NCBI GenBank assembly: GCA_023957215.1
Contig: JAMLHH010000009.1
Coordinates: 1 to 64,000 of the forward strand
Length of the DNA: 64,000 nt
Source: Chitinophagales bacterium
GTDB lineage: Bacteria > Bacteroidota > Bacteroidia > Chitinophagales > JADIYW01
Reading direction: 5' to 3'
Part shown: positions 47,504 through 64,000 of the stretch, in pieces
Position numbering within the stretch: position 1 is the stretch's first letter
How the letters are laid out: each line of letters starts with the position of its first letter
Made by a program: the position numbers and the translations under genes
Notes under the pieces: generated by a model
The model's database searches: none
The model's input: the letters and a program-made list of their open reading frames with translations, nothing else
Told to the model about the DNA's origin: nothing

Positions 47504-49372
47504 CTATGACATCATTATTTTCAAGTTGATTTCAGTACCGGTTTCAGTATTAGATTCTATGGTGATTGTACCACTCATTTCCTTGACTCTCTTTTCCATA
47601 TTATTAAGTCCGTTGCCTCTTTCAATTTTTTCTTTGTCAAAACCATTTCCAAAATCTTTGATAATAAGATGAAGCTGTTGTCCTTTTTGCGATAAGTGAA
47701 TGTTGATTTTATTGGTTTTACTGTATTTTCTGGCATTGTTAATGGCCTCTTTGAAAATCATAATGATATTCTTTCTTTTATTGGGGAGTATTTTTACTTC
47801 TTGTTGATCAATCTGAGTGTCAAAGATTAATTGTATTTCACTTGTACCAATAATTTCTGTAGCGACCTTTCTCAAATGCTCGACTAAAGCCTGTATTGTA
47901 TCATTGCTTGGATTGACAGACCAAACAATCTCTCTGATGTTATTGGCTATTTTATTGGTGAGATTGGAGACTTGCTGTAAAGTGGCTCTTATATCCTTGC
48001 CTTGCTCACTCTGCTTGATAGCCAAATCGCTGAAGATTTTTATACTGGATAGGGTAGAACCTATATCGTCGTGTAAATCTCCTGCAATATCACTACGCAT
48101 CTTTTCAAGTTGCTCTCTACGTTTGATACGTTGTTGGGTTTTGGTTCTATTGATGGCCACCATTGCAAAAGCTATCAGAAAAATGGCAATGCTGAGATAG
48201 ATATACATTTTGATTTTATACGACTTGGCAATGTTTTCTTTTTCTGTCAATTCTAATCTATGATTGAGTGAATCGACCTTTGCTTTTTGCTCGAAATCAT
48301 AACGGATACTAATTTTTTGATTTTCTATATCTAAAGATTCTTTAATTGAACTATCTTTTACAGCAAGTAATAAATTGAGATTTTCATAAGCTTTCTTATA
48401 ATCACCAACTTTAGAATAGTATAGACTCAAAAAATTGTAGTGATTGAGTGCATAATTAGCAAAATCCAAATACTCTTTACAACGGCTGCAAAGCTCTATA
48501 TATTTTTTGGCTTCTTTTATTTCATTTGCCTTGACCAAGGTATAGCCGAATGTTGAAACCATGCTACAATAGTAGTAATCGTGAAAATTGGGTTGATCAT
48601 AAGATTGTATGGCTAAATTTCCATAATATAATGCCGAGTCATATTTTTGCACCTCTTCATAGACCATGGATAAATTAGAAAGGCTGGAACTTAGTAAGTT
48701 TTTATTACCCATTTTCCTATGTAAACCAATAGCCAGCAGAAAGTTTTTAATAGACAAAGGATATTTTTCAGAATCTTTATAAGAATTTCCAAGATTATTA
48801 TAAAGCATAGCCATATTGGTACTATTGTTAATTTTTTTGGAGATTTCTAAAGCCTTGTTGATATACTTTAATTCATTTTCAGAATCTTTGATATCATTAT
48901 ATGCTATGCTGATATTGGTATAAAGATAAGAAAGTGCTTCCAGATTATTGCTTTCTTCAGCTAATCTCACTCCTTTAAACATGGTCTCCAAAGCCGGCTT
49001 GTATTGATTGAGGAATGTATAACAATACCCTATATTAGAGTAGCATCTGATTTCCTTTTCCTTATCCAACTTTGAATACAGCTGGGCTGCCTGACCACAT
49101 AACTTGATAGCATCATCATACATTGAATGACCAAAAAGTGTTACACCTTTGTCCAACAAAGCGTCTGCTTGCGAAAAATATAGTTTTTTACTTTTAGCTA
49201 CATCAATAGCTTGATCGAAAAGCTTTATTGCAGCACCAAAATCAGTTTGAGCAGTATCTGTAGCCTCCAAAACTAAATTTTTGATAAATAGGGAGTCTTT
49301 TTCATTTGCTTTTAAATTAAAAAATGAAAAGAGGATAAAACAAATAAAAGAAAGAGGTCTAAAAAATCTCAT
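47504..49372 (-). CDS. Periplasmic-TPR sensor histidine kinase (HisKA_3/NarX type)
   Basis: A 622-residue kinase that signals to the response regulator encoded just upstream. A signal peptide (~1-22) leads into TPR repeats (~45-350), each of about 40 residues, facing the periplasm. One membrane segment lies at ~385-405. The dimerisation/phosphoacceptor box is GDLHDDIGSTLSS, with His434. The ATPase has FKEAINNARKYSK (N box), DFGNGFD (D/G1) and RGNGLNNMEKR. This is the HPK7-type layout common in Bacteroidota. The ligand of the TPR domain is unknown. It is the second gene of the RR-HK operon, 70 bases after the regulator. Confidence 0.9.
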   Translation of the reverse strand: MRFFRPLSFICFILFSFFNLKANEKDSLFIKNLVLEATDTAQTDFGAAIKLFDQAIDVAKSKKLYFSQADALLDKGVTLFGHSMYDDAIKLCGQAAQLYSKLDKEKEIRCYSNIGYCYTFLNQYKPALETMFKGVRLAEESNNLEALSYLYTNISIAYNDIKDSENELKYINKALEISKKINNSTNMAMLYNNLGNSYKDSEKYPLSIKNFLLAIGLHRKMGNKNLLSSSLSNLSMVYEEVQKYDSALYYGNLAIQSYDQPNFHDYYYCSMVSTFGYTLVKANEIKEAKKYIELCSRCKEYLDFANYALNHYNFLSLYYSKVGDYKKAYENLNLLLAVKDSSIKESLDIENQKISIRYDFEQKAKVDSLNHRLELTEKENIAKSYKIKMYIYLSIAIFLIAFAMVAINRTKTQQRIKRREQLEKMRSDIAGDLHDDIGSTLSSIKIFSDLAIKQSEQGKDIRATLQQVSNLTNKIANNIREIVWSVNPSNDTIQALVEHLRKVATEIIGTSEIQLIFDTQIDQQEVKILPNKRKNIIMIFKEAINNARKYSKTNKINIHLSQKGQQLHLIIKDFGNGFDKEKIERGNGLNNMEKRVKEMSGTITIESNTETGTEINLKIMMS

Positions 49373-49442
49373 GCCAATTTTATCTTATTAAAATTAGTAT
49401 TAAAATTTAGATATTTTAAGAATTGTACAAGAATATTTTTAA

Positions 49443-50078
49443 CTATATAATATTCTCTTTCAAAGTTTTACTGACAGCTTCAGCTTGTGAATGAACATCT
49501 AATTTTTCATAAATCCGTTTAATATGTGTCCTGACTGTGCCGTCTGCTATTCCTAAGATGTTTGCCACCATCTTATAACTATTGCCATCAGTCAAGGATT
49601 GTAAAATCTCTTTTTCTCTATTTGTTAGCTGATAATCTTTTTTCTGTCTATTGGACTTTGAGATATGTTTTAACACCAAGGATGCTACCAAAGGGGACAT
49701 CGGTGCGCCACCTTCTAAAGCTTCGTGTATCGCATCTGAAAGACGTGAAGAAAGGTGTTGTTTGAGGATATATCCCGTCGCCCCATTCTGTATGGCTTCT
49801 ATAATATGTTTGTTGTCTTCAAATACAGTCAGCATCACTACCGGTATGTTATTATCGACTTTTCGTACTCTTTTTAATCCCTCAATTCCATTTACGATAG
49901 GCATATCTATATCCATTAAAATCAAGTCAGGGTCAAACATTTTCAAGTGAGACTCTATACCTTCACAATTAGGGAAAGATGCTAAAAGCTTAAATTCATC
50001 AGAGAAGCCCAATAGAGCTGAAAGGCTGAGACGTAGTTCCTGATTGTCTTCATAAAGCAGTATTTTTATCGTTCCCAT
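49443..50078 (-). CDS. NarL/FixJ-family response regulator
   Basis: A 211-residue regulator. I place the start at the ATG at 50078 (MGTIKILLYEDNQELR), not at an upstream ATG, because the receiver domain begins there and the inverted repeat and promoter lie just before it. The receiver (1-120) has the phosphoacceptor Asp56 in DLILMDIDMP. The C-terminal LuxR-type HTH (~145-205) has LTNREKEILQSLTDGNSYKMVANILGI...VRTHIKRIYEKL. The partner kinase gene is next. An inverted repeat upstream (50138-50155) recurs before the surface operon at 61585, so autoregulation together with control of that operon is likely. Confidence 0.92.
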   Translation of the reverse strand: MGTIKILLYEDNQELRLSLSALLGFSDEFKLLASFPNCEGIESHLKMFDPDLILMDIDMPIVNGIEGLKRVRKVDNNIPVVMLTVFEDNKHIIEAIQNGATGYILKQHLSSRLSDAIHEALEGGAPMSPLVASLVLKHISKSNRQKKDYQLTNREKEILQSLTDGNSYKMVANILGIADGTVRTHIKRIYEKLDVHSQAEAVSKTLKENII

Positions 50079-50107: not shown

Positions 50108-50155
50108 CAAATCTTGGTAAATTAAATTTTAAAAACAATACCCAATATAGGGTAT
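50108..50155 (-). promoter_or_regulatory. Inverted-repeat operator and -33/-7 promoter of the response-regulator operon
   Basis: On the minus strand the sequence ATACCCTATATTGGGTATTG (50155-50136) holds a perfect 6-6-6 inverted repeat (ATACCC / GGGTAT). Its last T begins the -33 TTG. Exactly 20 bases later comes AAGATTTG (50115-50108), near the TAnnTTTG consensus. Transcription should start around 50101, 23 bases before the ATG at 50078. The same sequence and spacing occur at 61645-61692. Confidence 0.7.
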
Positions 50156-50313
50156 GATTTGGGTGATCCCTTTTCAGGTCGGGCTATTTGCTTGTATTTT
50201 TAGTATTGAGACCACTTGTATTGAGTATAGAGACTTTTGTCGTCGCTTTTTGATTGTGGGCTTGTCTATATGAATGGAAGTCTATTGGGATCATGCATTT
50301 CTCCAGTCTCAAT

Positions 50314-50442
50314 ACTCACTACTCATTACTCACTACTCACTACTCATTACTCACTACTCACTACTCATTACTCACTACTCACTACTCATTACTCATTACT
50401 CACTACTCACTACTCACTACTCACTACTCACTACTCACTACT
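50314..50442. repeat. Eighteen tandem 7-bp repeats (ACTCACT / ACTCATT)
   Basis: The array runs 129 bases with a period of seven. Two unit types alternate in the order C,T,C,C,T,C,C,T,C,C,T,T and then six of the C type (C = ACTCACT, T = ACTCATT). It lies between the stop of the FN3 gene and the regulator promoter, about 160 bases upstream of the operator. Plus-strand reading frames through it are artefacts. Confidence 0.9.
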
Positions 50443-50474
50443 AAAACATATCGCTTCTATCCCTATCGCAATCA

Positions 50475-52679
50475 TCAGTACTTCACCTTTACTTCTTCGC
50501 TCAGGTTTGATTTTAGTTCTCCATGGTCTTGCTTAACTTCTATGGCGTATCTATATGTATTACCCTTTGTTATATTTTTATCATTGATAATTAACTGAGT
50601 CTTATCAACAGCATCCCATATCGTTAAAGGGTCATCATTTTCAGCTTTGTAAATGACAAAGTAGTAATTTTTATTCTTTGGAATATATTGCCAAGAGATT
50701 TGTATTGCATTGTCTTTTTTTACTAGGGCAGCATTCAGAGAATTTATTTCAGGTAACAAATTGATATCATAGTTCATCGCCCAGACTGGAAAGGATACTT
50801 TAGAACGCAAACCGGTACTATCTACAGTACTAGCCGCATACACATATTTGAGATTTGGATGTATAGACGCATCATTGACATAGAAATTAATATTTTTTGG
50901 CTCTCTTGGAATCCAAGCTATCGTATCCCATTGGCTGGCATCTTTGATTTTACGGTAAATTTCATAGCCCCACACTCCTTCACTTTCACTGCCTATCCAT
51001 TCGCTGTATATTGCTCCGTCTTTTGTGTCAATAGATTTGTTCACAGGAGCAGTAGGCGGTATTATAATAGGTTTAAGAACTTCGATAGCATTAGAAAATT
51101 TAGAATGATTTCCATTTTGATCGACTGCGACTATCTTATAATAAACTTTCCTATCGCGTGATCGAGTATTGATACTATCTAAGAAATAGGTTTCCTCGAC
51201 AAATCTTCTAGATACAATACTATAAGGTCCTTCTATATTATATGAAATATAAACACTATATCCTTTGACATCCGCCTCAGGACTTTTTTTCCAAAATAGA
51301 GCGATATAGCCGATGGAATCCATAATGCCTTTGATAACCTCAGGAGCTGTCGGTGGGATACTGTCTGTCAATATACCTCTCCGAGGTATCGAATAGGAAT
51401 AGTTTTGTACAGTATCCACCGAAACGATAGTATAATAATTAGGATGTAAAGCATCAGCGGTCGTATCGATATAGCTACGAGTACCCTTATTTAATAATTC
51501 TTGATGAAGTGGAAAAAATGGTCCCGCTGCATCAACACCTCTATTGACATAATAGCCTTTTAGATCGCCTTCAGTATCTGTATCTACCCAAGTGATTTTG
51601 ATATGATTGAGTTGGATATTAGTGACACTATCAATAGTTGCAGGTGAAGGAGCAGTTAGATCTATTCCGTGTACTATCAGTGTATCAGAATAAGCGCTCA
51701 AGTCTGCAAAGGCATCAATACCGATAATTCTATATTGATAATCATAATAGTTTTTAGGAATAGTATCAAAAAACACATGGTAGTCTTTTAGAATATTATT
51801 GATTTTATACTCAGGACTGTTTTCGTCATAACTGATGTCAGGTTGATAGGTGGATTGATAGGCTATTTCATTGAGTCGATGAAATGTCTTGCCGTTGTCA
51901 TCACTGCGGTCTATATAATATGTTGTAAAATTTCCGATTTGTTTTCTATCCCATTGTAATTCTATCTGTTTGTCTCTGGCGTAAGCTTTCAAATGATGAG
52001 GAGCAAGTGATTCGTAATAATTGATAATATTGGTATATCCGACTGTCATTGTATAGGCAACGTCTATGGTATCACAATAGATATAATAATCATACATTTT
52101 TCCTTTTTCCACGTTTTTATCGACATATCTCAAGCCTAATGCATTTGCAGCATTGATAGAGAGGTCGGCAGACTGCAATGCAAAGTAATACCTCATTCTA
52201 AACATATCACTGGCACTTTGTATCTGTTCGATTTCGCTCAATTGCTCGTCTGGGTTTGACATTGAAAAGTTTTGTCCATACATGGCTTGTGCTGCAAGTC
52301 CCATATATTGGTCTTCTTTTTTGCCGATGGCTTTGATTTGATTGGGAGTCATGGGCATGATAGCCTGATTAGTCAGTGCTAATGTATCTCTTGTCCCATT
52401 TTTGTTGAGTTCTACACGAACCAAATGATACCCTTTCTCTCTTCCCATGATCCAGCCGATAGGTGTTGTAGGAGCCCATCGTAGGACGACAGAATCTCCA
52501 TATGCTTTAGCATGTATAGGAATATCAATTTCCTTTATATTGGCTTTATGTTCTCCATCTACAAGAGTATCTTGAGTGATTGTATTTTGACTATAGCCAA
52601 TAGTTGGCAGTAGCATAATGAGACCAACAAAGAATTTCTTTGTGAGCAGGAACTTGAAATAATGATGGATACTATTCAT
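50475..52679 (-). CDS. Secreted fibronectin type III-like surface protein
   Basis: A 734-residue protein with a signal peptide (hydrophobic ~15-30, ending YSQ). The rest appears to be a series of beta-sandwich domains of about 90-100 residues. Several carry fibronectin type III marks such as W-x-DTD...L-x-GYYVNR, LFWKKSPEADVKGYSVYIS and WGYEIYRK (six or seven units judged by eye). The C-terminus is not a type A T9SS sorting domain. It is the third gene of the barrel-giant-FN3 operon, 26 bases after the giant gene. It probably binds its partners at the surface; no binding partner can be read from the sequence. Confidence 0.8.
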   Translation of the reverse strand: MNSIHHYFKFLLTKKFFVGLIMLLPTIGYSQNTITQDTLVDGEHKANIKEIDIPIHAKAYGDSVVLRWAPTTPIGWIMGREKGYHLVRVELNKNGTRDTLALTNQAIMPMTPNQIKAIGKKEDQYMGLAAQAMYGQNFSMSNPDEQLSEIEQIQSASDMFRMRYYFALQSADLSINAANALGLRYVDKNVEKGKMYDYYIYCDTIDVAYTMTVGYTNIINYYESLAPHHLKAYARDKQIELQWDRKQIGNFTTYYIDRSDDNGKTFHRLNEIAYQSTYQPDISYDENSPEYKINNILKDYHVFFDTIPKNYYDYQYRIIGIDAFADLSAYSDTLIVHGIDLTAPSPATIDSVTNIQLNHIKITWVDTDTEGDLKGYYVNRGVDAAGPFFPLHQELLNKGTRSYIDTTADALHPNYYTIVSVDTVQNYSYSIPRRGILTDSIPPTAPEVIKGIMDSIGYIALFWKKSPEADVKGYSVYISYNIEGPYSIVSRRFVEETYFLDSINTRSRDRKVYYKIVAVDQNGNHSKFSNAIEVLKPIIIPPTAPVNKSIDTKDGAIYSEWIGSESEGVWGYEIYRKIKDASQWDTIAWIPREPKNINFYVNDASIHPNLKYVYAASTVDSTGLRSKVSFPVWAMNYDINLLPEINSLNAALVKKDNAIQISWQYIPKNKNYYFVIYKAENDDPLTIWDAVDKTQLIINDKNITKGNTYRYAIEVKQDHGELKSNLSEEVKVKY

Positions 52680-52705
52680 AATCTTAAAATCTATAAGTTA
52701 ATAAA

Positions 52706-55700
52706 TTATCTTTGCCCTACAATTGGAGGCCAAAGAACTGGAGGTGGGGGAGTGTTGTAAATAACATTGGATTGTGTGCTAACATTGCCATGGTTTATTG
52801 GAAGTGTCGCTCCAGTACCACTATTGTTAGTGTTGCCAGTTGTGCTTGGTATCGTGATTTTTACATCATTATCAAGTAAGACACCGAAATTTATTATAGC
52901 CTCCTTTTTCTCTCTCATTTCTTGTGAACTGATTAGTTTGACCTTTTTATTAATTGAAGGTCCATTAATTGGAAATATAGGATAATTATTAAAATCAAAT
53001 CCTAATTTGAGATTCCCGTTTTGGTCTTTATTGTTCCCACCATTATATTCCCATAAATCAGAAAATTGGGAATGTCCATATTCTATGTATATAACATTAT
53101 CATATTTATTAGAGACTTTGTAATCTAATAGCCGTACACTTTCCATTAATTTATGAGATCTCATCCCTATCCAAAAACTTTGGGCATACTTTACTTTGTC
53201 TTCAAAAGTTACTTTATTATCTAATACATTTACACTGATAGAGCCACCTGCATAAGTCGCTAATGTTTTATTATATGGTTTTAATATTAAATCCTTGAAT
53301 TTAAAATAATTTGGATCGACCAAATAGTTGAAAAAAGTAAAGTCCACCTTGTCATAATATGATTTTAATTCTTTTCTTCCTTTAGCATATCTTTTTTCTG
53401 CTTCTTTGAATAAATAAAAATCAGTAGCTACAATCGAAGGAGATTGGTCGATGATACTCATACTTATACTGGAGTTTGTTCCTGCTGAATTGCTTGTACC
53501 CTCATCATTTAATAGAGTGAAGTAAGTACATTCATTTGACATCTTGTATGGATTTCGCGGAGTATCGTAAGTATTAAATACTTCTTTTGCCGGATTATAA
53601 CTATAATCTGTTTTTGTACCTCTGATATATGGATTGGAGAAAACGATATGTAAAAAATTGCTATCAATTAAAGTTTTAGAAATAGAATACATGGGCATAT
53701 CATAGTGAATATCTGCTGATAGTCTAGGTTGAGCATAAGCATGTAAAGTGAAATCAGTTTGAAATTTATTTGGATTGACTTTTAGTAAAGGAGGGATGGT
53801 ATAATCAAATAGATGCGACTTGTCATATCCTACTTTCCTTTTCATTCCTTTGATTTCAAACTCGTCAAAAAGCTCTCCTGTGTTAAATATTGGAATTTCA
53901 ATGTCATAAACGTTCGTAGCTTTAAAGACTGTTGCAATATCATATTTGTCCGGATTGTCTTTTACATCATAGTACCAAAGGTTAAAGATGTCTTTACTTG
54001 GAGTTTCAGCTGCATCTATCTCGGATCCTAAGCTTGCCATTTTATCTTTAAAAGAATTATACTTACTCGTTCTGAAGATGCTAGAGTATATGATTCTTCC
54101 TGATTCTGGCTGAAACACCTCTGTAGTATGACCTAATAGAGCTAAGGTATCTCCTTCTGACACAATATTGTCTTTATTAATGATCAAAGCATCTTGAAAA
54201 GCCTTGGGATTGGCGATGATATTAGACTTATCCAAAGCAGTAGAAGGGGAGCTTGGCGTTTGAGGTGTATTCGCATAAGGGTTGACAAGTTGATAGTTAT
54301 TAGTATTTACCGATATGTTTGAAGCGGTACCTTTTGGGGTGCTAGTGTTAGGTACTACACTAGATATATTTCCAGATATTATAGGGTTGGCTGGTGTAGT
54401 ACTATTGGTTTTGCCTTCAATGCTAATACTATTAGAAACAGCTTTTGTAGCATCATTGATAGTAAGGTTGACTCGTCCATTTTTATAGCGCAAATCTTTA
54501 TCATCTATTTTTATTTTAGCAGTTAAACCTTTTGCATGATTTTTATCCTCTACGGTGAAATATACTTGATAGACGGTTTCGTTCTTTAGACTAGAAGGAA
54601 TATCAAATGTAATATGTTGAGTTGGGTCAGCATAAAAAGTAGAATTAATTCTTGCTCCAGTGTTTTTTTCTACAAATGTGAGCTTCAACTCCGGTACAGT
54701 AGCATCTTCAAATGTAAAGTAGGATTTTGAATACTGATATAATAAAATTTTCCCCTTTCTATTAAATTCATTTTTCAATAAGAAATTTTGACCTTTCATA
54801 GGATAACTATTGACCACTGCATATTCGTCTATTACTCTTGGAGCTTTGCCGGTATTGAAGTAGATAGTAGAGTCTTGTGTAAATCCTTGAGGATGCTCTT
54901 TAGGATTTTTCCATTTATCACCAATTTTTTCAAAAGCTCTTCCTTTGATATAAGCACCATATAATCGTAGCTCATCGAAAGCATTTAGTCCTTTATTGAT
55001 AAAGGATGCAGCATAGCCATTTTCGCTATATTGAAGTTCGATATTGCTTACTGCTGAAGAAGATGAACTTTTGTCGTTAGTAGCAAACTTTAAAATTTTA
55101 GCATCAACGACTTCAAATTTGTAAATACGTGAGATGATGACCGGCATATCGTTATCATCTAACACTTCCTTACCTTTACTATCTGTTTTAGGCACTTGAA
55201 ATTCCACTTCAATAGGATCATATAGATTGTTGTTAGACATTGGTATGCTAAAAGTAGCATAAGGATTTGCGAAGATGCTGACATCTTTTTCAGCAGGTCC
55301 AAATTCTGAAATCATCTGAATATTTTCGAGTGGGTCGTCCCCGACAGAACATTTTGTACCCAAACTAAATCTCGCACTTGTATTGACACGGATTAGCCCG
55401 TTGAGCACTTCTCCTTGTATCCTGATACGACCATCCATCCAAGTCGGATTAGGTAGTCCAGCTTCCAAGGCGGCACCTATAGCTAATTTGACCAAGCTCA
55501 CTTCTCCGGACCAGAACCACAAATCCAATATAAATCCTACATCCATCGTAAAGAAAGCATAGATTTGCCCATTGGCATACCACCCATTCATGCCAAAATC
55601 TGTCGGATAATCCTTTTTTTCTTTTAAGTCAACAGCTCCCCCACAAGGAGATTTTGTGAAATATCTAAAAGCGACATCAAATCCTATTTTTGCACTAGCT

Positions 55701-58700
55701 CTGGCATAAAATATTCCTAGTTGCAATTTGAGCCCTCCATCTACTGCTGCTCCAAACATAAACCCTGATTGACCTCCTCCTATATCTGAAAGCATTTTGC
55801 TCATACTAGAAGATTTGTCTCCTAAAAACTCATTGACTTCGTTGGGTAAAGGTGGAAATTGGGGTAGTTTGGTTCCAGCACAGAAATAGGCACTTGCTTT
55901 CAAATACACTTTGAGAACACTAGTGTTGATATCTATAAAAGTAAGGGTGATACGACGATATGCTTCTCCCATAGCACCTTCCGAACTTTCTTGTTTTGCA
56001 GGGTAGCCTAAGTAGAGCCAGTATTGATAGTCTTCTTTGTCCTTGTCGATATGTACCCATATCGGAATATCTGCGTTAGCTATAAACATTTTAACATTCG
56101 CACCTACATACATGTCAAAACGATCTTGAGCAAACTCTAAAGCAAGCTTGGCATTGACTATGCCTTGGCTCTTTTGTTTGCCGTCAGATATGACATTTGC
56201 CCATCCATTGATCATTATTTTATCAAACCCACCACTGCTATTGAGTTGTAAAGTAAATCCGGCATTGGCTTTAACCATTTCAGCTCGAATATAAGTGAGA
56301 TCTAAACTCACATTAAAAGCCATTGTCCCTTTCTTTGGTTTAAAACTAAAAGGCCTGTCCCAGTTGTTTGTGTCACCAGCTATAAGATATAGATTTTGGT
56401 AGTATCCTCCTCCAAAACCATTGATGACCAATGGACCTATAGGGATAATGCCTGATTGCATATAGAGAGAAGCGCCAAATCCGAAATATTTATAATCGGA
56501 TTTAGAACCAAAGACAACCGTAGCAGATATTTCTATTCCCATTGGAAAGGTTACATCTCCCTCTCCAATGACACCTTGTCCCCATTCATCGTCATTTTTA
56601 AACTCCAAAGTGGCTTTGGCACTTATGGCTTCACCAAAATTGCCATCTATAGAAACTTTATTTAGTTCCACTGTAGGATAACTATCTTTAGCAGTAGGTT
56701 TTAGAGCGGTTCCTCCCATGACTCCCCATACTGTAAAAGAAGTTTCACCGTTTAACTGTATGGCATCTGTACCTAATCTCAAACCTACTCCAAATTCAAG
56801 ACCGACTGCAAAATGTCCATCTTTGGTAGATATCTTAGGACTAAAATTTTTAGGTTCAAAACCAAATCCACAAACGGTGTTGTCCTTAGATGCAGACCCT
56901 TCAGAGGAATTGCCATCAGGTCCGGGATAAGGTCCTCTTGCATATAATAGATCATTATTTTCATCCTCTGGGAATAGCATGCCTGTGCTATTGCTTTGCC
57001 CTCCACTTCTGGACAGCGTAGCAAATTTAATGTCACCGGAATAGAAATAAAATTCACCAATTTTTTGTTTGCTAATATTGCTTTCCTTCATGTTGTAGTT
57101 GGCGATTTGCATTCCTTGAATATCAACGGCATTGAGGATAACTTTAGGCTTATTACTGATGTCAATACTCAGTAGCAGATTCAAATCAGCACCTACTTTC
57201 AGTTTTGCATCTTTTTCTTTCACAATCTGAATACTTGTACCAGCCCCCAAAGTTGCATCTGCAATCCACATAGGTATTTTGTAATTTCCTACAGTGGAGA
57301 TATTGAAGTTGTAATTGATATGACCATCTACAGTATTGAGCCCACATGAGTATGATAAAGTGTCATCACTGATAGGTAAGGCTACCACCCCTGACATAGC
57401 AGCACCGCGAGGTATCCATTTTTTGATAGGGATATTAATCTTATCTATACTAAATAACCAGCCTCCAAGATCTCCTTTCCCGAAATCGAGTAGCTTGTTG
57501 GCAGATATGTCCGCCCATAGACCATTTTCACTATTGATAAATAGATTTTCAATAAGGATAGTAGGTAAAGTTGTCGTAGAGCTTCCAGCAAAATCTTTTG
57601 GTAGATTCATTTCTAAGCCTTTCATGTAAAAACCTTTGTAGGTGTTACCTTCTTTTCCTTTAAATTTGATATCATCAGCATCTGTAGGCCAAGTAAGATT
57701 ATTAGGATTGGCTTCTATAGAGTGGTCATAAAAAATTCCTGCTTTTGGATTGATGACAAATCCTGGAAGTCCTTCAATGGAAAATCTTGAATCAGTATTG
57801 AGATTAGCTATCCATTTCTCCCATTCTTTAAAATCAAATCGGGTATCCAATGATACTTGTCCACCTATTTCATTGCCTAAAGAATCTACTGGCTTGACAT
57901 CTTTTGGTAAAGTAACAGATGCTTTTATATATACCCGTTCAAAACCATCTGTGCTATTCCATTTCACATAGGAGGTATTGCTTGAGTCTCCCAAAAAGCC
58001 ACCTCTTAGTTTAAAGGCTACACCTCCACCCATATCAATACTTCTGTCGTTAGGTAAATACAATATACCATCAGCCACAGAAAATGTATTAGGATGAATA
58101 CAAAATCCTGCTCCAGCAAGAGAGAGCCATTCATTTCCATCTCCTGCCTCAGGGATTTTCATTGTAAATAATATTCTGGCATCAGCACCTTTGGGAGTAA
58201 AGATGATACCCATGATGGCCAAAGTTGATTTTACACCTGCTATATTCTTGTTGTCTAGACCCAAAGGGAAATCCACAGGGCTATTGCCTGTAAGTTGGTT
58301 CAATGGTTTTAAAGCACTGTTGGCCTTACTAACGATTGCATCTGCTTTATCTTTTAAGTTGCCTACTTGATTTAAGAATTCAGGGACACTCACATTAATC
58401 ATATTGATATCTTCTATAGCACTCGTTGTGATAATTTTTCCTGAGATGACTTCTTTTTTGCTGTTAAGAGTGATGTTGTCATATTTGACATTCATCATGA
58501 TAGGACGAGAATAAGGTGACCAAGTAATCTCTCCTGTTCCCTTGAAGGAGTTTTCACTTTTAGTAGCATTGAGAACTTTCATTTCAAATTCTCCAATTTT
58601 GATAATATCTCCATTGCTAAGAGTGCCGGTAAATGTAGTTGAATTGTCAACCGTTGGCAATCCACAATCAATTGGCAAGTCAGGTATATCTCCTGACATG

Positions 58701-59869
58701 ACAGTAGGTGTTGGTATTGGAGGAAGAGGAGGGTCTATGATGGTAATTCCACCTGGAAGAGTAGGGATATTGACCCCTGGAAACCCTGTTGGAGGTGTTG
58801 TTATAGTTGGATTTTGAGGATTTACGAATACGCTGGGTCTTGTGCCACCGCTATAGATAATAGGTGGATTAGAATTGGTTTTTGGTTGATATTTAAAAGC
58901 GATAATTTCACTATAACCTTGATTGCTTATTTCAAGTGGATTGTTGGGATTGTATTGTGTATTAGCTTTGACTTTAGCAATATAGCTTTTGCCGGATTTC
59001 AATACATTTCTATATAAAAGGGTGTCTAAAATAAATAAGTTGGTAGGAATATTTTCTTTTCTAAAAACATAGACATTATTTCTTGCGTCATTGATAGTTT
59101 GTCCGGGATAGAGTTCTCTGATTTCAAATTCATAGGTAATAAATCCGAGTGGAAACCCACAAGTGGTGGTAGGAGCCATCCATGCAAACTGTATTTGATT
59201 AGACATAGGTGCCAGTGTTTCAAAATCTCTACCTTGCATCATAATGGATGAAAACGGCATAGTAAACTGTGGAGCTGATGCGCTATAACAGATATTGAAC
59301 GTAGCACAACCATACCCCATTGGAATGGTTTGTCCCAAATCATTGAAATCATAAGCAGTCACACAAAGCCTATACATTCCTTCGGGTAGTTTATAATTTA
59401 ATGCGTTTTGTTTCAGAGATTTATAATCCATGTTGTCAAAAATCAATTCTTTTTTGGAAAATCCGCCAAATGCAGCATCTACCATTGCTCTATCTACACG
59501 TATCACCTGATTAGGTGCCATCAAGATGGGATTGGAAGGTTGATAGTTGGGATTGAGAGATATTGAGCCGTAGGTAGGACTTAATCTTTCTAATTTTGCA
59601 CTCAGTTTGATTTGTCTTTGCTCAGGAGAGAGATTATGCAGATTGATGATAATCTTATCTTTTAGAGTGGAACCATTGGTGCCGAGTTGTCCTTGCTGTA
59701 TCTCATTGACCAATTGTGGCAAATAAGGAGACATAGGCTGCATGACCATGACATTCACATTCACATTTTGCTGTCCCAATGCATTAGACATAAAAGCCAG
59801 ATATGTAAGGATGCTGAAAGTAATTGTCTTTAGGATATTGCTTATTTGGATTTGATTTTTCATAGCCAA
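52706..59869 (-). CDS. Giant 2387-residue surface protein with a TANFOR-like N-terminus
   Basis: After a signal peptide (to about 33) come a TANFOR-like beta domain (~34-165: VNVNVMVMQPMSPYLPQL, then LHNLSPEQRQIKL) and a second beta domain (~195-325). A Pro/Gly/Thr linker (~335-410) has TTPPTGFPGVNIPTLPGG and PPLPPIPTPT. The main body (~410-1790) is beta-rich with many GxGxxF turns. A Thr/Ser/Asn/Pro linker (~1800-1875) leads to a C-terminal part ending YNTPPPPVLWPPIVGQR, without a recognisable sorting domain. Roughly 260 kDa by length. It follows the barrel gene by six bases and precedes the FN3 gene by 26. It probably forms a large surface structure anchored by the barrel; that role is an inference. 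Confidence 0.82.
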   Translation of the reverse strand: MAMKNQIQISNILKTITFSILTYLAFMSNALGQQNVNVNVMVMQPMSPYLPQLVNEIQQGQLGTNGSTLKDKIIINLHNLSPEQRQIKLSAKLERLSPTYGSISLNPNYQPSNPILMAPNQVIRVDRAMVDAAFGGFSKKELIFDNMDYKSLKQNALNYKLPEGMYRLCVTAYDFNDLGQTIPMGYGCATFNICYSASAPQFTMPFSSIMMQGRDFETLAPMSNQIQFAWMAPTTTCGFPLGFITYEFEIRELYPGQTINDARNNVYVFRKENIPTNLFILDTLLYRNVLKSGKSYIAKVKANTQYNPNNPLEISNQGYSEIIAFKYQPKTNSNPPIIYSGGTRPSVFVNPQNPTITTPPTGFPGVNIPTLPGGITIIDPPLPPIPTPTVMSGDIPDLPIDCGLPTVDNSTTFTGTLSNGDIIKIGEFEMKVLNATKSENSFKGTGEITWSPYSRPIMMNVKYDNITLNSKKEVISGKIITTSAIEDINMINVSVPEFLNQVGNLKDKADAIVSKANSALKPLNQLTGNSPVDFPLGLDNKNIAGVKSTLAIMGIIFTPKGADARILFTMKIPEAGDGNEWLSLAGAGFCIHPNTFSVADGILYLPNDRSIDMGGGVAFKLRGGFLGDSSNTSYVKWNSTDGFERVYIKASVTLPKDVKPVDSLGNEIGGQVSLDTRFDFKEWEKWIANLNTDSRFSIEGLPGFVINPKAGIFYDHSIEANPNNLTWPTDADDIKFKGKEGNTYKGFYMKGLEMNLPKDFAGSSTTTLPTILIENLFINSENGLWADISANKLLDFGKGDLGGWLFSIDKINIPIKKWIPRGAAMSGVVALPISDDTLSYSCGLNTVDGHINYNFNISTVGNYKIPMWIADATLGAGTSIQIVKEKDAKLKVGADLNLLLSIDISNKPKVILNAVDIQGMQIANYNMKESNISKQKIGEFYFYSGDIKFATLSRSGGQSNSTGMLFPEDENNDLLYARGPYPGPDGNSSEGSASKDNTVCGFGFEPKNFSPKISTKDGHFAVGLEFGVGLRLGTDAIQLNGETSFTVWGVMGGTALKPTAKDSYPTVELNKVSIDGNFGEAISAKATLEFKNDDEWGQGVIGEGDVTFPMGIEISATVVFGSKSDYKYFGFGASLYMQSGIIPIGPLVINGFGGGYYQNLYLIAGDTNNWDRPFSFKPKKGTMAFNVSLDLTYIRAEMVKANAGFTLQLNSSGGFDKIMINGWANVISDGKQKSQGIVNAKLALEFAQDRFDMYVGANVKMFIANADIPIWVHIDKDKEDYQYWLYLGYPAKQESSEGAMGEAYRRITLTFIDINTSVLKVYLKASAYFCAGTKLPQFPPLPNEVNEFLGDKSSSMSKMLSDIGGGQSGFMFGAAVDGGLKLQLGIFYARASAKIGFDVAFRYFTKSPCGGAVDLKEKKDYPTDFGMNGWYANGQIYAFFTMDVGFILDLWFWSGEVSLVKLAIGAALEAGLPNPTWMDGRIRIQGEVLNGLIRVNTSARFSLGTKCSVGDDPLENIQMISEFGPAEKDVSIFANPYATFSIPMSNNNLYDPIEVEFQVPKTDSKGKEVLDDNDMPVIISRIYKFEVVDAKILKFATNDKSSSSSAVSNIELQYSENGYAASFINKGLNAFDELRLYGAYIKGRAFEKIGDKWKNPKEHPQGFTQDSTIYFNTGKAPRVIDEYAVVNSYPMKGQNFLLKNEFNRKGKILLYQYSKSYFTFEDATVPELKLTFVEKNTGARINSTFYADPTQHITFDIPSSLKNETVYQVYFTVEDKNHAKGLTAKIKIDDKDLRYKNGRVNLTINDATKAVSNSISIEGKTNSTTPANPIISGNISSVVPNTSTPKGTASNISVNTNNYQLVNPYANTPQTPSSPSTALDKSNIIANPKAFQDALIINKDNIVSEGDTLALLGHTTEVFQPESGRIIYSSIFRTSKYNSFKDKMASLGSEIDAAETPSKDIFNLWYYDVKDNPDKYDIATVFKATNVYDIEIPIFNTGELFDEFEIKGMKRKVGYDKSHLFDYTIPPLLKVNPNKFQTDFTLHAYAQPRLSADIHYDMPMYSISKTLIDSNFLHIVFSNPYIRGTKTDYSYNPAKEVFNTYDTPRNPYKMSNECTYFTLLNDEGTSNSAGTNSSISMSIIDQSPSIVATDFYLFKEAEKRYAKGRKELKSYYDKVDFTFFNYLVDPNYFKFKDLILKPYNKTLATYAGGSISVNVLDNKVTFEDKVKYAQSFWIGMRSHKLMESVRLLDYKVSNKYDNVIYIEYGHSQFSDLWEYNGGNNKDQNGNLKLGFDFNNYPIFPINGPSINKKVKLISSQEMREKKEAIINFGVLLDNDVKITIPSTTGNTNNSGTGATLPINHGNVSTQSNVIYNTPPPPVLWPPIVGQR

Positions 59870-59875
59870 AAGATT

Positions 59876-61585
59876 TTAAAATTGATAAGAATAATTGACC
59901 CCCGCCGAGAAGTTTTTTGTATTGACAGAATAAGGAACGATTTCTAATTTATTGAGTGGGTTGAGATCGATAGGTGGCGTAATCAGATAACTGCTGAATA
60001 GACCAAAGCTATGTTTTTTGGCACTCATGTTTGCATTTAGATTAAAACTGATATTATTACCGGCTTTTTCACCATTAGAACGGTTGAAAAAGTAACCAAC
60101 GCTTCCTTGTAAACCTAACTGATGTTCTTTTAATAATTGGGTATTGGCTCCCACATTAATACCGGTAGAGTGATACCTGAGGTTTTTTTGTCCATAGACA
60201 CTATAATTGACTCCGGTGTTGATACCTGTAAAAGCTTTTAGAAACTGTATTGTATAATTACCGGATACATTGATATTATTGCCTTGTACTTGATCGGCAG
60301 TAGCAGGATTCTTGTCGTATAAATTAGTGTAAGTGGCCGTGGTGTTGACATTGTGCTGTATATTATCGGAACTGAATGTCAGATTGGGAGATACCATATA
60401 AGAGACCATCATTTGGTTCATTTTGACACTGTCACTTAATTCGATGATACCATCCTTTTGTTCAACTTTTGCCAATGTTCCGTTTCCACTGATATTAAAA
60501 TGTTTTCCAAGATTGGCAAAAATATTTAGATTCCCCACACGTGACTGTACTTCTGAAATTAGTGATTTGCTGAGATTGTTGTGCTGGTTGTTAAAAGCTC
60601 CGTTGAGATTTAGTTTTCCTTTGAATAGGGTAGTAGAGGCCGTCGCACTATAAGTTTCTACGTCATTGACTGTATAAGGCATTCCGAGAGAAACATAATC
60701 GGGTTGTATTCTTTGATAATTGACAGCTAATTTGATGGGTTTTAGACTCAAGCTGATGCCTGTTCTACCGGCAAAGCTGAAAGTAGTGGTCGCATTGGAA
60801 CTATTTAATTTGGAAACAAAGCCGGGCATCCCCAAATCTGTGGAGGCATCTGTTTCCGGATAAAAGGAGTTTCTATTTAACATACTCACCCCTATATTTC
60901 CTGTGAATGATAAAACTTTCCCTATTGAAACTGACCAATTACTACCTATCACAGTGTTTTCTTGAGGGAAGATGGTATTAAGGGTGTCTATAATAGTTTT
61001 GACAGATTTTTCATTGTCTTTGGCGTGAAAGAGCTGCACTCCAAAAGAGCCGTGACTTCCCTCATAAGCTGCTTTAATCCCATAACCAACTCTTGAATAT
61101 TGAGGTTCTACGCGCCTGTCGGCAGTCGTATCTTCACTAACAGCTTTATTGAGTCTGCCATAAAATCCGCCTATTTTAAATTTACCGGGACTTAATTCTA
61201 CCCCGCCACCAAGAAAAGTCTGTCCATCAAAAACAAATGGATTGAGCGACATGGTACGATATCCTACATGGACTTTTATCCATTTATAAGTAGGACTCAT
61301 ACCGAGCTGTGTAAATGGTACTGTATAACTGGTACTGAATTGTGCTACACTGAAAGAAAAAGGAAGCTCGAAGCCGTAGATTTTCATGTTGACATTTCCG
61401 TACAAATTCCAATTAAAAGGGTCTCTTGATTTGTAAGTTTCATTAGATGCATAGAAATTCGTTCCTGCACCTACACTACCTGAGATTTCAAAAGGCTTTT
61501 TTTCTTTTATGTCTGTAAAATCCTGAGCAGTCAAGTTTTTACAAAACAGAAGAAAAACGATGATGTAAATGCTTTTTGCTTTCAT
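59876..61585 (-). CDS. Outer-membrane beta-barrel protein of the giant-protein operon
   Basis: A 569-residue protein with a signal peptide ending LTAQ. Many alternating-pattern strands follow, for example FSFSVAQFSTSYTV, VNYQRIQ and INTGVNYSVYGQ. The last residues are GVNYSYQF, with a terminal Phe as in outer-membrane barrels. I recognise no named family. It is the first gene of the operon and lies directly upstream of the giant surface protein, so it may be its outer-membrane anchor or partner. The promoter carries the inverted repeat also found before the response-regulator gene. Confidence 0.75.
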   Translation of the reverse strand: MKAKSIYIIVFLLFCKNLTAQDFTDIKEKKPFEISGSVGAGTNFYASNETYKSRDPFNWNLYGNVNMKIYGFELPFSFSVAQFSTSYTVPFTQLGMSPTYKWIKVHVGYRTMSLNPFVFDGQTFLGGGVELSPGKFKIGGFYGRLNKAVSEDTTADRRVEPQYSRVGYGIKAAYEGSHGSFGVQLFHAKDNEKSVKTIIDTLNTIFPQENTVIGSNWSVSIGKVLSFTGNIGVSMLNRNSFYPETDASTDLGMPGFVSKLNSSNATTTFSFAGRTGISLSLKPIKLAVNYQRIQPDYVSLGMPYTVNDVETYSATASTTLFKGKLNLNGAFNNQHNNLSKSLISEVQSRVGNLNIFANLGKHFNISGNGTLAKVEQKDGIIELSDSVKMNQMMVSYMVSPNLTFSSDNIQHNVNTTATYTNLYDKNPATADQVQGNNINVSGNYTIQFLKAFTGINTGVNYSVYGQKNLRYHSTGINVGANTQLLKEHQLGLQGSVGYFFNRSNGEKAGNNISFNLNANMSAKKHSFGLFSSYLITPPIDLNPLNKLEIVPYSVNTKNFSAGVNYSYQF

Positions 61586-61644
61586 GTAAGAGTTTTAAAG
61601 GGTACAACAAATCAATAAATTATTTTAAATCTTATTAACTTATG

Positions 61645-61692
61645 TAAAGTTAAACAAGTTGTTTTTGGGATTCAATACCATAAATAGGGTAT
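61645..61692 (-). promoter_or_regulatory. Inverted-repeat operator and -33/-7 promoter of the surface operon
   Basis: On the minus strand ATACCCTATTTATGGTATTG (61692-61673) matches the regulator's operator at 17 of 20 positions. It again ends in the -33 TTG, and 20 bases later comes TAACTTTA (61652-61645), one base off TAnnTTTG. The start codon at 61585 lies 60 bases past this box. Confidence 0.7.

Positions 61693-61790: not shown

Positions 61791-64000
<2,210 letters not shown>

Follow-up and report, generated by a model that had tools for sequence, protein, structure and literature searches.

A shared inverted-repeat operator predicted to couple a NarL-type two-component system to its own promoter and to adjoining surface-protein genes in a Chitinophagales bacterium

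A sensor kinase and a NarL-type response regulator encoded as a two-component system (47504-50078) in a Chitinophagales bacterium very probably switch on themselves and their neighbours in this uncultured organism, since a shared palindrome is present at three promoters of the locus and the arrangement is repeated in distant relatives with variants of their own. In the reading that we hold with considerable confidence, the phosphorylated regulator would act through an 18-bp inverted repeat to activate the promoter of its own gene together with a surface regulon that is strictly local. The sites, their positions and spacing, their exclusivity within the genome, their conservation and their lineage-specific co-variation are directly observed in the DNA. 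The stretch analysed, referred to here as the window, comprises 64,000 nucleotides, and the features below lie on its minus strand unless stated otherwise.

The sequences ATACCCTATATTGGGTATTG (50155-50136) and ATACCCTATTTATGGTATTG (61692-61673) are identical at 17 of 20 positions, as a preliminary description of this DNA had stated and as direct reading of the sequence confirms. Operator 1 (50136-50155) lies 5' of the response regulator gene and consists of an 18-bp inverted repeat (ATACCCTATATTGGGTAT, 50155-50138) with NarL-type TACCC-N6-GGGTA geometry, together with a -33 TTG. Operator 2 (61673-61692), likewise an 18-bp inverted repeat (ATACCCTATTTATGGTAT, 61692-61675) with a -33 TTG, lies 5' of an operon encoding an outer-membrane beta-barrel, a giant protein and an FN3-type protein (barrel-giant-FN3). 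One base is common to the repeat and the TTG in this genus. The -7-like box reported exactly 20 bases after the TTG is indeed present at both sites, as AAGATTTG (50108-50115) at the regulator promoter and TAACTTTA (61645-61652) at the surface operon promoter, and both repeats stand 22 nt upstream of this Bacteroidota -7 box. The same TTG-N20 spacing, also claimed earlier, was recovered at the tRNA-Leu promoter of the window, with the box TATCTTTG. Apart from operator and box, the two operator promoters are not evidently similar; one does not seem to have been copied recently from the other, nor are they a duplicated segment. A third operator, missed by the preliminary description, lies past the window edge (contig 66836-66883), 5' of a small ORF bearing a T9SS sorting tail and of a collagen/YadA-head/S74 gene.

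These sites are exceptional in the 2.88-Mb genome, where only operators 1 and 2 fall within one mismatch of ATACCC-N6-GGGTAT; the hundreds of scattered copies that would have spoken against a dedicated operator were not seen. A compound pattern (operator-TTG-N20-WANNTTTR, up to three mismatches allowed), built with the collagen-gene sites left out, gave three matches in the genome, namely both window promoters and the collagen-gene site, and the reversed pattern used as control gave none. Across about 9 Mb from three congeneric genomes the compound pattern was matched at seven sites, all in this locus, again with no control match. Furthermore, the joint statistic on the two window promoters was reached by none of 400 Markov-randomised pairs. 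The motif alone, at three mismatches, was found 14 times in the 64-kb window against 8.5 expected, which is not significant; what makes the sites significant is that the copies are near-perfect, stand at promoter positions and are conserved. Scored with a matrix from distant homologues, operator 1 is moderately significant, with about eight sites expected per genome at that score, and scoring of the window with the matrix only was rejected as a detection approach, being too weak alone for operator 1.

The response regulator gene (49443..50078, ATG at 50078) encodes a NarL/FixJ-type protein in which a REC domain (Pfam PF00072, 1.9e-21) is followed by a LuxR/GerE HTH (PF00196, 3.4e-17) with the recognition helix TVRTHIKRIYEKL. 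The phospho-acceptor aspartate, judged by eye, is present in an LILMDIDMP motif. NarL is the best NCBIfam match, at 136.8 bits against an equivalog cut-off of 250, and the protein is not a NarL orthologue; among PDB sequences the best match is VraR (5hev, 2.7e-29), with NarL second. The sensor histidine kinase (47504..49372) has an N-terminal signal/TM, TPR repeats, a second TM near residues 388-408 and HisKA_3 and HATPase_c domains, with a DLHDDIGS H-box. Its TPR region lies between the two membrane segments, a FimS-like layout (topology judged by eye), and it scores 54.3 bits against the NCBIfam FimS model, far under the equivalog cut-off of 600.

The first gene of the surface operon (59876..61585) encodes the barrel, of 569 aa and about 26 strands in the structural model (pLDDT 84). 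It is followed, after a 6-bp gap, by the gene for the giant protein (52706..59869, 2387 aa), which is probably secreted or surface-located, and, after a further 26-bp gap, by that for the FN3-type protein (50475..52679, 734 aa). Neither barrel nor giant is matched by any Pfam or NCBIfam model, and a PDB sequence search gave no match for the barrel. A fold search with the barrel returned generic large barrels only (MtrB, FimD and LptD, TM up to 0.50), and for this reason no function is claimed for it. A barrel homologue is present in 92 of 398 sampled genomes of the order, and barrel-giant-FN3 (52706-61585 and loci in relatives) is a recurrent, unannotated gene set of the order. The collagen-like/YadA-head/Peptidase_S74 gene (61791..64000), whose unit carries the third operator, runs past the window edge. 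This unit looks damaged at about 64.7-66.4 kb of the contig, where the T9SS-tail portion of the small ORF is broken by a transposase-like insertion; close to the beginning of the collagen-like gene the frame is shifted beside an ATCA tetranucleotide repeat, possibly reflecting phase variation or decay. The copies in congeners are uninterrupted.

Two genomes of the same genus (Chitinophagales MAGs; JAMLHI010000006.1 and JAMLHJ010000010.1) have the gene order of the window, with the collagen-like gene, barrel, giant, FN3, regulator and kinase in succession. In both, TACCYTATTTATGGTATTG-N20-TAACTTTA is conserved 5' of the barrel gene amid diverged flanks, and the operator is also present at the collagen unit. 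The congener regulator is 85% identical to that of the window. An operator was looked for before the regulator gene in both congeners and is absent, and autoregulation is consequently not conserved within the genus. The regulator gene there lies about 150 bp downstream of FN3, suggesting that it may be transcribed by read-through from the surface operon. In the window, the gap between FN3 and the regulator is enlarged by a 7-bp microsatellite (CTCACTA x19; 50308..50442, plus strand), which is absent from both congeners, and here the regulator gene is preceded by an operator. One site in the congener represented by JAMLHJ010000010.1 (G002:C17), resembling the operator of a more distant genome described below (G054), was dropped as lying inside a coding frame.

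Beyond the genus, a two-component system adjoins a barrel operon in three further lineages of the order, and in each an operator peculiar to that lineage is found at the regulator promoter as well as at the surface-operon promoter. In G054, where the operator is ATTACC-N6-GGTAAT, the regulator site is ATTACCCTAAATGGGAAT-N22-TAGTTTTA and the barrel site ATTACCATAAATGGTAAT-N22-TAGGTTTG, the latter being the sole perfect copy in that genome. G347 has a CTCCCAT-N4-AKGGGAT type (CTCCCATAAACAGGGGAT at the regulator, CTCCCATGATTATGGGAT at the surface operon), with only these two sites within one mismatch genome-wide. In G317 (RTAACCC-N4-TGGGTAT) the regulator site is ATAACCCCAATTGGGTAT-N22-TACATTTG and the barrel site GTAACCCTTTTTGGGTAT-N22-CACTTTTG, with no further compound site in 7.8 Mb. 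Because the patterns for these lineages were derived from the very sites they match, what counts is the absence of any other match in those genomes. Of 24 permutations, the one that joins regulator and target operators of the same lineage was the best. Most barrel loci inspected have no adjacent two-component system of this type, and the operator is essentially confined to those that do: a generic operator was found at five of six surface-operon promoters adjoining the system (the filter misses one true site, in G317) versus three weak matches at 35 promoters without it (Fisher p = 4e-4).

The same class of motif extends to the regulator family. De novo searching of the regions upstream of 48 regulator homologues, mostly from Bacteroidota and without use of the window motif, recovered, in about 35 cases, an 18-bp palindrome resembling ATCMCATGATTATGGGAT (LLR 255 versus 33-43 for shuffled sets); about a quarter of the genes have no such motif upstream. 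The recognition helix TVRTHIKRIYEKL is shared by these regulators, with small changes. The -7 box score peaks at a spacing of 22 nt after the palindrome (3.5 versus about 1.6). Within 10 kb, 43 further copies of the operator belonging to the respective locus were found, in 21 of 34 loci (controls 0-6), and 41 of these have a box at 21-23 nt. The genes downstream of them encode collagen-like, FN3, LGFP, Kelch, T9SS-tail, peptidyl-arginine-deiminase-like and LytTR proteins, and in one case an extracellular contractile injection system (eCIS) operon. Scanning 80 relatives with the distant-homologue consensus plus box gave almost no matches, which fits operators that are lineage-specific. In Spirosoma terrae (L072:5664, 9903, 12873), the regulator is surrounded by three identical operators, ATCCCCCTTTTATGGGAT, in a span of 7.3 kb, one of them 5' of a collagen-like gene. 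In the Bacteroidota MAG KLAP56 (L065:9928-18983), a family regulator has its operator, and a second copy comes after it, immediately 5' of the eCIS operon, which encodes Pvc16_N, sheath and tube proteins and baseplate.

The preliminary description also suggested that both promoters are activated by a single regulator, with the NarL-type protein encoded next to one site as the candidate. Sequence comparison supports this through the surface-operon operator kept in the congeners, the three lineages with operators at both promoters, the operators upstream of most homologous regulators and the NarL half-site and geometry, with the correction that the congeners lack the regulator's own operator. 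A dimer of the regulator would bind the 18-bp inverted repeat in NarL 7-2-7 geometry, with the core TACCC-N6-GGGTA. As the -7 box TAnnTTTG occupies -12 to -5 in flavobacteria (PMC9723704), the window operators would be centred near -43.5, where they either immediately precede the -33 element or take its place, and the bound regulator would replace the -33 contact in class II activation. The earlier observation that the repeat ends at a -33 TTG stands for both window sites but not as conserved architecture, since the TTG is present at the operator end in only 4 of 34 homologous regulator promoters; its absence from the other 30 is expected of activator-dependent promoters in which the regulator replaces that contact. 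The predicted regulon is strictly local and would comprise the regulator's own promoter, giving positive feedback, the barrel-giant-FN3 operon, and the small T9SS-tail ORF with the collagen-like gene.

From these patterns we infer the regulator as the binder, phosphorylation dependence of binding and activation as the effect, and other explanations must be weighed on the first and last points. A different transcription factor, encoded elsewhere, might bind the operators and govern the surface genes as well as the two-component system, as could be argued from the congeners, in which the regulator gene has no operator and the surface genes keep theirs. This is improbable, however, because across four lineages the operator variant changes together with the regulator beside it, the motif class recurs upstream of homologous regulator genes, mostly in Bacteroidota, and NarL geometry suits this HTH family. 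Slightly less probable still is that the regulator binds these sites as a repressor that keeps RNA polymerase from the -33 element; the one-base overlap with the TTG would allow this, but a centre at about -43.5 with a fixed 22-nt spacing is the position of a class II activator, and the 30 of 34 homologous promoters that lack the TTG would be too weak to need repression. That the two repeats reflect chance, or a recent promoter duplication with no regulatory meaning, is hardly credible: the window holds just two sites and its loose motif scan is not significant, yet the dissimilar flanks, the conservation in congeners and three other lineages, the failure of all 400 randomisations and the restriction of compound matches to this locus all count against it. 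Activation by the adjacent regulator is the preferred reading.

The closest known parallel is the FimS/FimR system of Porphyromonas gingivalis, which also pairs a TPR-containing periplasmic-sensor kinase with a response regulator; the FimS model is among the NCBIfam matches of the window kinase, far under its cut-off. FimR is an activator of surface fimbriae that directly binds two promoters, that of mfa1 and that of the gene heading the fimA cluster, according to the parts consulted of PMC1974823 and PMC11053733, in which no defined FimR operator or autoregulation site was found. FimS/FimR acts on an adjacent surface-structure cluster, and activation of the adjoining surface operon is predicted here from the shared operator; the targets differ, being fimbriae in one case and the barrel-giant-FN3 operon and a collagen-like protein in the other. 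By analogy, adhesion or matrix interaction is a plausible role for the barrel-giant-FN3 system. Escherichia coli NarL prefers inverted heptamers 2 bp apart, an engineered high-affinity 7-2-7 site being TACCCCTAAAGGGGTA; its activation of napF relies on a 7-2-7 site at -40/-49 (PMC4549865). The TACCC half-site, the N6 gap and a position near -44 are shared with NarX/NarL (high-affinity 7-2-7 site, napF/yeaR; PMC4549865), whereas sensor, targets and promoter type differ, the window promoters being of the -33/-7 type. VraR/LiaR-type regulators have the same REC and LuxR-HTH layout as the window regulator. They belong to cell-envelope stress systems of Firmicutes, with other targets and other sensors. 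The mechanism is of a known kind, and the operator family, its fixed spacing and the regulon appear to be undescribed; no described operator of this kind was found in the open-access literature, which is not proof of absence.

To our knowledge, and as our literature searches, which found nothing, also suggest, transcription control in Bacteroidota is poorly mapped outside Bacteroides and Flavobacterium, and NarL-type binding sites there are hardly known. We lean, with less assurance than for the window itself, towards the view that the TVRTHIKRIYEKL NarL-type clade provides portable local switches across the Bacteroidota, each activating itself and an adjacent surface or secretion machine through an 18-bp operator placed 22 nt before a -7 box, their targets including barrel-giant-FN3, collagen-like proteins and, in a single MAG, an eCIS. 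Operator and regulator would co-diverge, making the wiring readable from sequence. A defined operator at a fixed distance from the -7 box would permit prediction, from sequence only, of the surface and secretion loci under a given two-component system, including those of uncultured species, and barrel-giant-FN3, a system to which neither a function nor a family match could be assigned, gains a first regulatory handle.
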